Source of the DNA: an uncultured Prevotella sp. | GTDB taxonomy: Bacteria; Bacteroidota; Bacteroidia; Bacteroidales; Bacteroidaceae | DNA length: 64,000 nt | NCBI GenBank assembly: GCA_946614435.1 | Contig: CAMOGW010000007.1 | Coordinates: 30,087-94,086, forward strand | Direction of reading: 5' to 3' | Shown here: in pieces, positions 18,391-63,931 of the stretch | How the letters are laid out: each line of letters starts with the position of its first letter | Numbering within the stretch: position 1 is the stretch's first letter | Notes under the pieces: model-generated | Databases searched by the model: none | What the model saw: only the letters and a program-made list of their open reading frames with translations | What the model was told of the DNA's origin: nothing | Program-made: the position numbers and the translations under genes

Positions 18391-18528
18391 ATATACTTGA
18401 AGTTTTCAAAACATCTGCTCCATCTGCTCCCATCTGCTCCATCTGAAATTATTTGCAACTGTTTGATAATCAGATGGTATTGCAGATGGGAGCAGATGGA
18501 GCAGATGTTTTGAAAACTTATAGTATAT
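18391..18528. repeat. Long inverted repeat with perfect 38-bp arms and internal CATCTGCTC modules
   Basis: 18400-18437 and 18482-18519 are perfect reverse complements (38 bp); after two mismatches the pairing resumes for seven more pairs (18391-18397 with 18522-18528). The 44-base centre contains a further stem, CCATCTGA (18439-18446) with TCAGATGG (18470-18477). The arms consist largely of repeated CATCTGCTCC. No ORF is associated. It lies between two convergent genes. Confidence 0.9.
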
Positions 18529-59628: not shown

Positions 59629-59671
59629 AAATAAAAAAAACGAAAATGTGACGTGTGTGTCGTTTTTTGTG

Positions 59672-59679
59672 TAAATTTG
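59672..59679 (+). promoter_or_regulatory. Probable promoter for the GH2 gene
   Basis: TAAATTTG fits TAnnTTTG, 27 bases before the chosen start. No clear -33 box. Confidence 0.5.
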
Positions 59680-59705
59680 CAACCGACTTATATATAAAAA
59701 GCACT

Positions 59706-62636
59706 ATGAAGCGATTACTAATCAGTTTGTCATTTATCATTTTTCATCTTTCAATGAGTCACGTATCGGCTCAGCAAGTCATCTCACTTGAAGGCGCCTG
59801 GGACTTCCGTATGGGCGACACCGATGCCAAGACCGTTCCCGACGACTACGACGACTATGTGATGTTGCCCGGCTCAATGCTAACCAACGGCAAGGGCAAT
59901 CCCGTGTCGGTGCACACCCAGTGGACTGGTTCGCTCTATGATTCCAGCTTCTACTTCAATCCCTACATGGAGAAGTATCGTCGCGAGGGTGGGGCAAAGG
60001 GTGAGCCCGGTGAGGTGAAGTTTCCTTTCTTCCTCACGCCTGAGCGCCACTATGTAGGAGCCGCCTGGTATCATCGTTCGGTCTATGTGCCTAAGTCGTG
60101 GTCTGATCAGCGCATCACGCTCTTCTTGGAGCGACCGCACATCGAGACCAAGGTCTATGTCAACGGTCGTGAGATCGGGCGGCAGCTCAGCCTCTCAACG
60201 CCCCATCGCTACGACATCACCAGCTTCGTGAACTTCGGTGACAAGAACGATATCAGTATCCGTGTCTATAATGGCATTGAGAACGTATGCGTGGGACAGG
60301 ACTCCCACTCCGTGACCGACCAGACGCAAGGCAACTGGAATGGCATTGTGGGCCGCATCGAGTTGCAGGCTCAATGGAAGAAACTGAACATCCGGCATGT
60401 GCGCGTCGTGCCGAATGCAGCCCGGCGCAAGGTAGATGTTGAGGTGGAACTGGAGAATCATGTCGATGGCGTGCGCTTCTTCCCCGATGGCAACTATCAC
60501 GTGTATGTGACGGTACGCTCCGTCGGTGGCTGGCAGTCGCGCCCCATACAGGCTGCGGCTGTCAAGGAGGCGCTTGGCAGCAAGAAGCGTTTCGAGATAC
60601 CTCTGGGCGAGAAGGCGCGTCTGTGGGACGAGTTTGAGCCTAACCTCTATCTGTTGACGGTCAGAGCCGGCGACGATGTCTATGAGACGACCTTCGGCTT
60701 GCGCGACATCAGCGTGGAAGGCCGCCAGCTGAAGCTCAACGGTCATCCGCTCTTCCTTCGCGGCACGGTGGAGAACTGCTGTTTCCCTGCCACAGGCTTT
60801 CCGCCCACCGACGAGCAGGAGTGGCTGCGCATTTTCCGCAAGTGCAAGGAGTATGGGCTCAACCACGTGCGCTTCCACAGCTACTGTCCTCCCGAGGCTG
60901 CCTTTGCCGCTGCCGACCAGCTGGGCATCTATATCCAGGCTGAAGGCCCCACGTGGCCCAATCATGGCGTGAAACTGCGTCGCGGCATGAAGATCGACCA
61001 GTACCTGCTGGAGGAGTCGAAGCGCATCATCGACGAGTACGGCCACCATCCCTCCTTCGTGATGATGGCAGCCGGCAACGAGCCTGCAGGCGACTGGGTG
61101 AGCTACTGCAACGATTGGGTGAAGGAGATGAAGAAGTATGACCCCACGAAGCTCTATGCCGGAGCCTCAGTCGGTGGCGGATGGGCGTGGGACAGCGGCT
61201 CTGAGTATCACGTGAAGGGCGGCGCACGCGGACTTGACGACTGGAATCGCCGGGCCCCGTCGAGCGATGACGATTACTACAGCGGCATCCTCCATCCCAG
61301 GAACTATAAGGGAGAGGAGCCCAATCAGACCCCCATCGTCACCCATGAGAAGGGACAGTGGTGTGCTTTCCCCGACTTCAGCGAGATACCTCAATACACA
61401 GGTGTCTATAAGGCAGGCAACTTCGAGATATTCCGCGACCTGCTGCGCGACAATGGCATGGAGGGCATGGGCAGCAAGTTCCTGCATGCCAGCGGCAAGT
61501 TGCAGATGCTGTGCTATAAATACGAGATTGAGCGCAACCTGCGCACCAAGGACTATGCTGGCTTCCAGCTGCTCGGCCTCAACGACTACAGCGGTCAGGG
61601 TACGGCTCTCGTAGGCGTGCTCAACGTGTTCTGGCGCGAGAAAGGCTACTGCACCGCCCGTGAGTGGCGCGAGTCCTGCGGGCCCATCGTGCCGCTGGCC
61701 CGCTTCCCCAAGTTCGTCTTCACCAACGACGAGCAGCTGCAAGTGCCTGTTGAACTCTACAATGCCTTTAAGACAGCAGTGAGCAACGTCAATGCCACCT
61801 ATAGCATCAGCGACGATCAGCAGCGGCTCCTGGCACAGGGCACGCTCTTCTCGGGCATCGTTCCCGTGGGCAAGAACTTCCAGCTGGGCACCGTGAAGCT
61901 TGCGCTCGATACCATCCGGCAGCCTGCCAAGCTCACGCTGGCCGTACAGCTTTCCGGCAGAATACAGAACCACTGGGAGTTTTGGGTCTATCCGGGCACA
62001 GCCGATTGCTCCCCGCTGAAGGACGACGGCATCTATATTGCCGACACGCTCGATGCCAAGGCACTGAAGACCCTGAAGAAAGGCGGCACCGTGCTGCTCA
62101 CGGCTGCAGGCCGCGTCACGCTGGGCAGCGACGTGAAGCAGACCTATCTGCCCGTGTTCTGGAACACTTCGTGGTTCAAGATGCGTCCGCCTCACACCAC
62201 TGGGGCCTACATTCACAAGGATCATCCCCTGTTCCGTCACGGCTTCCCCACCGACGACTGGTCGAACCTGAACTGGTGGGAACTGCTCAACAAGGCGCAG
62301 GTCATGAACCTCATGGAGCTGCCCGCGAGCTATCAGTCGCCCATCCAGCCCATTGACACGTGGCATGTGTCGCGCAAGCTCGGCATGCTCGTCGAGGCCC
62401 GGGTGGGCAAAGGTCGTCTGCTCATGACGACGATGGACATCACTCACGATCTTGACCACCGCCCCGTAGCCCGTCAGATGCGTCAGGCCATCCTCTCCTA
62501 CATGCAGAGCGCCGACTTCCAGCCCGCTATCGAGTTGTCGGCAGAGCAGATAGAGCACTTCTACACCAAGCGAGCACCGGCAGTGAACATGTTCACCAAT
62601 GACTCGCCCGACGAGTTGAAGCCGAAAATCAAGTGA
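59706..62636 (+). CDS. Glycoside hydrolase family 2-like protein, exported
   Basis: The 976-residue protein starts with a signal sequence (MKRLLISLSFIIFHLSMSHV) and has a GH2 architecture: an N-terminal galactose-binding-like domain (with AWYHRSVYVPKSW), an immunoglobulin-like domain, and a barrel beginning KLNGHPLFLRGTVENCCF. The acid/base Glu is expected in MMAAGNEPAGDW and the nucleophile Glu in VTHEKGQWCAFPDF. The C-terminal 300 residues form extra domains. The substrate is not clear; GH2 in Bacteroidota covers beta-galactosidase, glucuronidase and others. No SusC/SusD pair is adjacent. An upstream ATG frame (59655) overlaps the promoter. Confidence 0.86.
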   Translation: MKRLLISLSFIIFHLSMSHVSAQQVISLEGAWDFRMGDTDAKTVPDDYDDYVMLPGSMLTNGKGNPVSVHTQWTGSLYDSSFYFNPYMEKYRREGGAKGEPGEVKFPFFLTPERHYVGAAWYHRSVYVPKSWSDQRITLFLERPHIETKVYVNGREIGRQLSLSTPHRYDITSFVNFGDKNDISIRVYNGIENVCVGQDSHSVTDQTQGNWNGIVGRIELQAQWKKLNIRHVRVVPNAARRKVDVEVELENHVDGVRFFPDGNYHVYVTVRSVGGWQSRPIQAAAVKEALGSKKRFEIPLGEKARLWDEFEPNLYLLTVRAGDDVYETTFGLRDISVEGRQLKLNGHPLFLRGTVENCCFPATGFPPTDEQEWLRIFRKCKEYGLNHVRFHSYCPPEAAFAAADQLGIYIQAEGPTWPNHGVKLRRGMKIDQYLLEESKRIIDEYGHHPSFVMMAAGNEPAGDWVSYCNDWVKEMKKYDPTKLYAGASVGGGWAWDSGSEYHVKGGARGLDDWNRRAPSSDDDYYSGILHPRNYKGEEPNQTPIVTHEKGQWCAFPDFSEIPQYTGVYKAGNFEIFRDLLRDNGMEGMGSKFLHASGKLQMLCYKYEIERNLRTKDYAGFQLLGLNDYSGQGTALVGVLNVFWREKGYCTAREWRESCGPIVPLARFPKFVFTNDEQLQVPVELYNAFKTAVSNVNATYSISDDQQRLLAQGTLFSGIVPVGKNFQLGTVKLALDTIRQPAKLTLAVQLSGRIQNHWEFWVYPGTADCSPLKDDGIYIADTLDAKALKTLKKGGTVLLTAAGRVTLGSDVKQTYLPVFWNTSWFKMRPPHTTGAYIHKDHPLFRHGFPTDDWSNLNWWELLNKAQVMNLMELPASYQSPIQPIDTWHVSRKLGMLVEARVGKGRLLMTTMDITHDLDHRPVARQMRQAILSYMQSADFQPAIELSAEQIEHFYTKRAPAVNMFTNDSPDELKPKIK

Positions 62637-62648
62637 TTCTTTTTTTAA

Positions 62649-62891
62649 CTGAAGTTTCCCATCCTTTTTTATTTATCAAGAATTAGAGATTTTGAGAATT
62701 ATTTTTGAATTACCCGTCGCAAGCGACTGGAATCCTGCGGATTGAAACGGAAATGGCTGGCCATTTCTTCTCAAATTCCTAATAATTCTACCAAATTACA
62801 AAAGGAGAAATTCTCCAATTCTTTGCAAGCAAAGCGACCAAAGGTCGAGCGCTCTAATTCTTGATAAATAAAAAAGGATGGGAAACTTGAA
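62649..62891. repeat. Large nested palindromic element
   Basis: Perfect 37-bp inverted arms (62652-62688 and 62852-62888) enclose 163 bases. Inside are stems TTTG+AGAATTATT (62691-62703) with AATAATTCT...CAAA (62781-62795), TTTGA/TCAAA (62704-62708 with 62771-62775), GTCG-CAAG-CGAC (62716-62727), AATCC/GGATT (62731-62743), GAAATGGC/GCCATTTC (62750-62767), GGAGA/TCTCC (62804-62816), CTTTG-CAAG-CAAAG (62821-62834) and CGACC/GGTCG (62835-62847). Two loops are both CAAG. TTTTTTAA flanks the arms on both sides (62641-62648 and 62892-62899). No ORF is seen. Confidence 0.88.
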
Positions 62892-62895
62892 TTTT

Positions 62896-63900
62896 TTAAT
62901 CCTCCCCTTTGAGGTGTTCGAGCATAAGGTCTTTCTCTGAAAGGCCTTTTTCTTTAGTTGAGCCTTGCATAAAGTCATCGACGCGCCATTGGCCTTCCTC
63001 CCATTTCATAATCAAGCATTGAGGCTCATGGTAGGTCTCTGGCTTTCTCACATAGTCAGCCCTCACCACGAGGTCGAGGGCTATTATGGCGCGTCCGTCT
63101 TCCATGATCTCGCACTTGCTGACGGTGGCTGAGTCAATGCTGTGAAACTCCTGACGCAGTCCCCAGTGGTCGCTGTTGAAGAAGCTGAGTCCTTCGGCCC
63201 TGTTAGCCTTGTCCATGGAGTCCACCTGCTGATACAGTCGGTAGTATTCCTCCGTGACGTAGGGCATCTTGTTGAACTTGTCCAGACTGGTGTAGTCGCG
63301 TGTTTGTCGTTGAGTCTTACATTCGTCAATCAGTTTCGCGTACAGTTCCATCGTCTGATCCTCAGCCACACATGCTTTGATGGCATCCTTCTCTGAGCTC
63401 AGGCTGATGAAGTCATCGATGTGCCAGCAGCCCTCCACGTCTTTGCAGAGTGCCAGTGTGATGTGCTCCTGTCCCGAGCAGTTGCCGCTGTGGGTGATGG
63501 TGATAGCCGCTGTGGGTTGTCCCTTACTGGTGCTCACGCTGTCCACCCGCATGCTTACTTGATCCCAGTCCTGCGCTTGAATCCAGTGGTCGCCGTCGGG
63601 ACCAACTATCTCCCCTGGGTATTTCTTAGCCATCTTCTCCAGTTCCCCTTGCCACATCAGAAAGTCGGGCGAGAGATATTTCTTGTCGAAAGCCTCCACG
63701 TCGGGGTTCCCCTCGCCTTGCTTGTTGTAAGCGCTGAGCACGTCTTCGTATGCAGTCTTCAGGAAGGTGACAATCTCAGTGGAGTCAGTCTGGAGGATGG
63801 CCTCCGTTTCCGACTGGCTGTCGTCGTCATTGTGATTGCTCGCTTGTTTGCAGCTGGTTGCAATCAGAGCCGCTGCAATGAGAAAATGATAAGTCTTCAT
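62896..63900 (-). CDS. Lipoprotein with two DUF3828-like domains
   Basis: The protein (334 residues) has a signal sequence with a lipobox (LIAATSC at about residue 13-17, LIAAALIATSCKQ) and two diverged domains of similar plan, about 40-165 and 185-320. Each has a helix-rich start with a KY-or-YYRLYQQ segment, a middle SDxW-like part, and a strand-rich end with WHIDDF in the first and WRVDDF in the second. I assign DUF3828-like tentatively. Role unknown; it should be membrane-anchored, facing the periplasm. ATG 63900 is chosen because the longer frame adds a Lys-rich leader. Confidence 0.65.
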   Translation of the reverse strand: MKTYHFLIAAALIATSCKQASNHNDDDSQSETEAILQTDSTEIVTFLKTAYEDVLSAYNKQGEGNPDVEAFDKKYLSPDFLMWQGELEKMAKKYPGEIVGPDGDHWIQAQDWDQVSMRVDSVSTSKGQPTAAITITHSGNCSGQEHITLALCKDVEGCWHIDDFISLSSEKDAIKACVAEDQTMELYAKLIDECKTQRQTRDYTSLDKFNKMPYVTEEYYRLYQQVDSMDKANRAEGLSFFNSDHWGLRQEFHSIDSATVSKCEIMEDGRAIIALDLVVRADYVRKPETYHEPQCLIMKWEEGQWRVDDFMQGSTKEKGLSEKDLMLEHLKGED

Positions 63901-63931
63901 GTCCTTTTTCTTTTTGAACGATTTCTGCATG

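Follow-up and report, generated by a model that had tools for sequence, protein, structure and literature searches.

The question raised by this locus is whether a nested palindrome lying between two convergent genes is a mobile element, a structured RNA or terminator, or a DNA site that is recognized in a folded, single-stranded form. We analyzed it within a window of 64,000 nucleotides of contig CAMOGW010000007.1, which belongs to an uncultured Prevotella sp. with an assembly of 2.06 Mb that is 56% complete. Very probably, the 243-bp element is an inserted non-autonomous MITE, which would be mobilized in trans by the IS4-family transposase of an element that shares its end core.

Position and fold of the element

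The element occupies positions 62649 to 62891, coordinates which are exact to the base, and fills the gap between a gene on the plus strand (59655-62636) and a gene on the minus strand (62896-63930), so that the convergent arrangement given in the preliminary description is correct. Equally exact are the inverted arms of 37 bp noted there, as positions 62652-62688 (plus strand) and 62852-62888 (minus strand) are perfect reverse complements. On either side of the element lies TTTTTTAA, at 62641-62648, with one T more in its T run, and at 62892-62899, the right copy including the stop codon of the minus-strand gene (62896-62898). No transposase gene is located inside the 243 bp, and among open reading frames of at least 60 amino acids a single, mechanical one of 60 residues overlaps the element.

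The region 62640-62900 is predicted to fold with -97 kcal/mol on the plus and -99.9 kcal/mol on the minus strand, while shuffled sequences average about -50 and -51 kcal/mol, respectively (z of about -10.5; none of 200 shuffles as good on either strand). The six hairpins that had been named earlier are all present in the minimum-energy fold of the plus strand, and this part of the proposed tree-like folding stands. In contrast, the enclosed 163 bases folded alone reach a z of -2.08, with 3 of 200 shuffles equally good; the extreme score is thus carried by the arms, and the symmetry of the interior is weaker than its appearance.

Strong folding on both strands and a position between convergent genes would be consistent with a structured RNA or a bidirectional terminator, with arms that pair when transcribed in either direction and so end or protect both messages. 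Four terminator-like hairpins are, in addition, found in 62500-63050, where shuffling yields a mean of 0.5, the most-paired of them lying outside the element at 62926-62948. Several findings make such a function improbable. Comparison of the whole window with Rfam gave no match at gathering thresholds, the interior by itself folds only as well as stated above, copies of the element reside beside unrelated genes, and the close relative G178 keeps the gene pair without the element, the two stop codons being 7 bases apart. The core with hairpins (62695-62788, plus strand; about 94 bases, based on the fold and on an alignment of 20 copies, window included) was also compared between copies. Core hairpins 1 (GTCGCAAGCGAC, 62716-62727) and 3 (GAAATGGC/GCCATTTC, 62750-62767) are kept in this alignment, while hairpin 2 (AATCC/GGATT, 62731-62743) is not. 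Covariation of the inner stems, proposed in the preliminary description as the sign of an RNA and generally taken as the criterion for an RNA family, was observed at one of the 16 predicted core pairs, which has two-sided changes in six sequences; 14 pairs are invariant and one is broken once, and hence the core says little for or against a structure. Given the lack of an Rfam match, the single covarying pair and the unrelated neighbors, a structured non-coding RNA is unsupported for the element as a whole. Transcription may be affected as a side effect after insertion.

Insertion, related copies and the likely transposase

The 1.3 kb around the element were searched against 200 genomes of the genus, with the host genome among them. 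In G178 (contig C165) both flanks are present, 91% and 98% identical, the gene pair is intact and the element is absent. The empty site reads GATTC-TTTTTTAA-TCC, the window GATTC-TTTTTTTAA-element-TTTTTTAA-TCC. As the site in G178 has one TTTTTTAA and no element, the flanking repeat is an 8-bp target-site duplication, as had been suspected, and insertion of the element at this position is supported; from one site alone, excision in G178 is an alternative. A sister copy elsewhere in G178 (C204) carries AATAAATAA on both sides. Two further candidate empty sites were compared: the minimal copy L045 of G023 is absent from G178, with a boundary blurred by short local repeats, and the left flank of the sister copy L167 does not align to G023. 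The search of this genome and its relatives for copies and empty sites, as proposed in the preliminary description, hence revealed multiple copies and, among the sites compared, one clear empty site.

Within the host genome, 19 matching pieces, some merely arm or module, are distributed over seven contigs; on the six contigs other than that of the window, the pieces on C1, C3 and C12 are short. Matches with E up to 0.01 occur in 25 of 60 genomes, this one included, many of them to the module or an arm only. Phage records gave no match to the element, and plasmid records a single one, in Prevotella sp. E2-28, which covers bases 175-208 of the 251-base query, i.e. the module only. From all loci, 34 distinct pairs of ends were collected by script. 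Inner arms of the CAAGAATT or CACGAATT type are present in 22 of them, among which L191, L193 and L200 have another interior. Equal flanks were counted once, so that the window copy and L259, its ortholog in G023, form a single entry. Direct repeats of at least 6 bp abut the ends at 15 of the 22 copies (at least 7 bp at 14), while 202 random re-pairings of the flanks resulted in a mean of 0.65 and a maximum of 3; no duplication of 6 bp was found at 7 of the 22 copies. The remaining 12 end pairs include four with a duplication (re-paired mean 0.33, maximum 1). Duplication lengths range from 6 to 11, seven and eight being the commonest, and the copies adjoin unrelated genes. Thus, the features that define a MITE, namely terminal inverted repeats, a target-site duplication, a short sequence without a transposase gene, and dispersed copies along with empty sites, are all found here.

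The collection also contains a number of composite arrangements. L193 (1000-1450) is a nested case, in which a remnant of the window type encloses an element that is of a different type, shares these ends and has a 10-bp duplication with one mismatch. Two copies of the window type plus a partial third form a direct tandem array at L042 (1130-1760, G023:C11) and at L037 (G000:C2, this genome). The same outer ends enclose other short-repeat interiors at L189, L191, L199, L200 and L201, and at L189 (1250-1750) the units are arranged in tandem and combine this outer end core with a different interior (ACGGATTTCACGGATTATACGGATTT). A small insert, GAGATTTGTCGAAGACCCAC...GGTAATT or a variant thereof, splits the inner arm at L051-L054, L035, L015, L091 and L195. 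The window itself harbors a second long palindrome at 18391-18528, with 47-bp arms that are 96% complementary and composed of CATCTGCTC-like units; similar units reside beside the C2 array and in L044.

The left end of the element (62649-62664, plus strand) reads CTGAAGTTTCCCATCC and resembles the IS4-type end CTAAAGTTTCCCACC, and the right end (62876-62891) reads TTCAAGTTTCCCATCC on the minus strand. The end core AAGTTTCCCAYC was found in 9 of 13 genomes, and in 8 of these 9 it is commoner than a reversed control; for G009 and the four genomes lacking a match, it does not exceed that control. In G178 (C200) and G034 (C66), facing ends about 1.66 kb apart surround a gene of 480 and 497 amino acids, respectively. 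Both genes possess Pfam DDE domains and encode IS4-family transposases (NCBIfam NF049925, transpos_IS4_4; 372.5 and 354.7 bits at a cut-off of 250). IS4-family transposases between such ends, 1661-1669 bp apart, were identified at three loci, and a fourth locus has both ends. In the 200 genomes of the genus, NF049925 matches in 24, in 12 of them over the cut-off; no match was obtained in this genome (56% complete), while G178 holds both the IS4-type IS and a sister copy of the element. The IS4-family element with the same ends that is expected for an IS4-family derivative is thus present in the genus, as four of the 12 loci over the cut-off (L206, L209, L211, L213) display the shared end on both sides. 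L204 and L214 have it on one side, L210 and L212 have a different end (...TTTCGCAAGTGAA), and at L205, L207, L208 and L216 neither end was found on both sides, with the different end on one side of L216. Shortened IS copies have an 8-bp duplication, CTGAATAA, in one case (L215, 1160 bp) and a 7-bp duplication in another (L231); an exact duplication is absent at the three full-length IS copies and at the shortened L221.

Since AAGTTTCCCAYC also bounds the 1.66-kb elements with an IS4-family transposase, the element is most likely an IS4-type MITE, the end shared by MITE and IS amounting to only about 12-13 bp. Judged from the common end core and the duplication length, the transposase likely recognizes the ends of the element and moved it in: the enzyme of a related element would act in trans on the MITE ends, leading to insertion and a duplication of about 8 bp. 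The non-autonomous mobile element suggested in the preliminary description is thereby upheld by the empty site, the dispersed copies, the duplications and an IS with the same end core.

Arms, inner repeats and the 31-bp module

The interior of the element is a mosaic of 8-base-repeat arms, the hairpin core and a double-hairpin module of 31 bp; a further hairpin, GGAGA/TCTCC, is located at 62804-62816. For a comparison of the arms, 12 of the 22 copies were oriented by their core hairpins; those that contain N or do not have both core hairpins or arms were left out. Eleven of the 12 have unequal arms, the left extending over 48-49 bases (to the end of CAAGAATT or CACGAATT) and the right over 28-33. 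The left arm of the window copy measures 33 bases to that repeat end and is identical to the right arm of the G178 sister copy at 33 of 33 positions (score 33.0), compared to a score of 18.5 against the sister's left arm. A like symmetry, with the right arms of its own genome, is displayed by copy L052 of G032. Most likely, the left arm (62652-62688) was rewritten from the right arm (62852-62888), its likely template, and the perfect 37-bp arms would be secondary. Polymerase template switching at the palindrome could have copied the right arm over the left. Template switching between inverted repeats is reported to homogenize their arms and either to create RNA hairpins or to preserve them (PMC8604942, PMC8794818). 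That long perfect arms can arise as a by-product of arm-to-arm copying and not by selection is a testable statement, and some caution is appropriate, as neither long perfect stems nor paired changes in dispersed repeats are proof of a functional RNA.

The inner arm (62677-62702, plus strand) is composed of the 8-base repeats CAAGAATT, AGAGATTT and TGAGAATT. Arms of the same kind lie on both sides of GxxExxY genes (TIGR04256; Pfam PDDEXK_3) in three relatives, G023 (L046), G006 (L017) and G018 (L087), from which it might be speculated that the inner arm unit is the actual mobile unit, akin to intervening-sequence-like elements with a GxxExxY (PD-(D/E)XK) gene, and that the IS4-type ends were acquired later. 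We consider this history highly unlikely, because the boundaries of insertion and duplication coincide with the outer ends and not with the inner arms, and because of the 33 GxxExxY matches, which are spread over 17 genomes of the genus, only 3 have such flanks. A general inverted-flank test exceeds the shuffles at 13 of 28 GxxExxY loci (e.g. L060, L075, L083, and L084 with its near-copy L085). Since it does so at 10 of 18 Y1 loci as well, inverted flanks as such do not single out GxxExxY genes. Between the arms of the window copy, no open reading frame for a GxxExxY or four-helix-bundle protein was found. GxxExxY was hence rejected as the mobility gene, despite the arms common to the three loci. 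The MITE may have acquired its arm unit from a GxxExxY-type element. More broadly, GxxExxY (PDDEXK_3) genes within inverted arms of short tandem units were observed at L046 (941-1333), L017, L087, L070, L060, L075, L083 and L084; the arm units at these loci differ in sequence between genomes, and gene and arms together possibly represent a mobile unit.

The 31-bp module (62821-62851, plus strand) consists of two adjacent hairpins, CTTTGCAAGCAAAG and CGACC/GGTCG, followed by AGCG. Compared to the G178 sister copy, which reads TCAATT-CTCTAATTC, the window reads CCAATT-[31 bp]-CTCTAATTC, i.e. a clean insertion without target duplication, and the module was likely inserted later into the right half of the element. 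It is an abundant repeat in the genus, with matches in 124 of 200 genomes (E up to 0.001) and at least 16 copies in this genome, the counts per genome being lower bounds because no more than 32 candidates were scored in each; a model search over 68 sources returned 67 module matches. TT precedes all 38 distinct copies in a fixed-pattern scan that did not require it, most of the loci having been fetched with queries that contain TT. In 13 of the 38 copies, the sequence behind the module is to at least 75% a repeat of the sequence in front of it, where 2.5 are expected and 500 re-pairings reached a maximum of 7.

For an alignment of the module, 35 of 36 copies (33 distinct) were kept and L265 was left out as a presumed chance match in a Bacillota record. 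Two-sided changes occur at 5 of 10 pairs and in 14 cells, while shuffles gave means of 2.0 pairs and 3.0 cells and in none of 500 cases as high a value. In the proper register 93.9% of the cells pair, compared to 26-41% when the alignment is slid, one slid version nevertheless displaying two-sided changes at 4 pairs and in 9 cells. Further pair types number 8, against 6.4 upon shuffling, and 87 of 500 shuffles reach 8. The covariation resides in the second stem; the first is nearly constant, in part because the copies were gathered by its sequence. As template switching could keep the stems of the module paired as well, the covariation is no proof of an RNA. We further observed that the module often lies within short tandem repeats, the register of which is unbroken (L102, L101, L018, L006, L282 and others), and that in places it is located inside short open or annotated reading frames (L019, 1480-1640; L313, 1201-1233, on plasmid pE2-28).

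It might tentatively be hypothesized, although we would not favor it over its denial, that CTTTGCAAGCAAAGCG-NNN-loop-NNN-CGAGCG defines a genus-wide Prevotella family of minimal mobile hairpins, which insert cleanly after TT without target duplication, often into tandem-repeat arms with the register kept, which have a second stem paired by compensatory changes, and which are moved by an enzyme reading folded single-stranded DNA. If so, Prevotella palindromes would grow by nesting of hairpin in hairpin and by copying of one arm onto the other. The earlier idea of a site recognized in its folded single-stranded form is unsupported for the whole element, while the module remains a candidate.

That the whole element is REP- or BIME-like and moves as a single-stranded hairpin through the action of a Y1 (RAYT) transposase might be suggested by the recurrence of hairpins with a GCAAGC core across the genus and by the position of the module after TT without duplication of the target. 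IS200/IS605-type elements likewise insert without duplicating the target, and Y1 enzymes are not known to make a target duplication. The whole element, in contrast, has ends that are inverted and a target duplicated over about 8 bp. Moreover, Y1_Tnp gave no match in this genome and none in G023 (each about 56% complete), and CTTTGCAAGCAAAG within one mismatch was present at none of 30 Y1_Tnp loci, one of which, L109, has another GCTTGC palindrome. With both the Y1 search and the flank check negative, this origin was rejected for the element as a whole, for which it is very hard to believe; for the inner module, Y1-type movement may apply.

Relation to known systems

With IS4-family insertion sequences and the MITEs derived from them (NF049925), the element shares the end core, the duplication of about 8 bp, a short form without a transposase gene and dispersed copies. 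It differs in its interior, where repeat arms and hairpins form a mosaic, and in that the host genome gave no match for the partner IS. Bacterial interspersed mosaic elements are small intergenic palindromes combined into mosaics, and they are, like REP elements, tied to Y1 transposases. REP and interspersed mosaic elements differ from the element of the window, as they are without IS4-type ends or a target duplication. The combination of small intergenic palindromes into mosaics is a feature of REP elements also (PMC3733652).

BrickBuilt of Porphyromonas gingivalis (PMC4596501) is a MITE of the Bacteroidota which has inverted ends around a tandem-repeat interior, is intergenic, and occupies sites that are filled or empty between strains. 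There, a 23-nt minisatellite is enclosed by ends most like those of ISPg1/ISPg9, while the element of the window has inverted arms of 8-base units with hairpins between them and IS4-type ends. MITECca01 of Cardinium (PMC9769881), also from the Bacteroidota, similarly has palindromic inverted repeats and is linked to a named IS; this is ISCca4 (IS982) and not an IS4-type element, and the passages on MITECca01 that we used do not describe a hairpin mosaic. Intervening sequences of 23S rRNA (PMC4990558) have inverted arms able to enclose a small gene; in contrast, the copy in the window is not in rRNA and has no such gene inside. Palindromic candidate structured RNAs from human microbiomes (PMC8040213), some from Bacteroidetes, resemble the element by their description, with structures predicted on both strands of one region. 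Most of the palindromic candidates are read as terminators in that study.

The open-licence literature on MITEs or palindromic repeats in Prevotella or Bacteroidetes and on RAYT in Bacteroidetes, also when queried with the repeat letters, gave no description of the element and no name for the module; for nested palindromic elements nothing relevant appeared, and the repeat letters retrieved unrelated papers only. As a mobile element, the locus most likely belongs to a kind already known, the IS4-type MITE. The perfect palindrome thus turns into two testable statements, the one on arm-to-arm copying given above and a second one, that an IS4-type transposase mobilizes gene-less mosaics in Prevotella. 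The part which may be new in kind is the 31-bp module.
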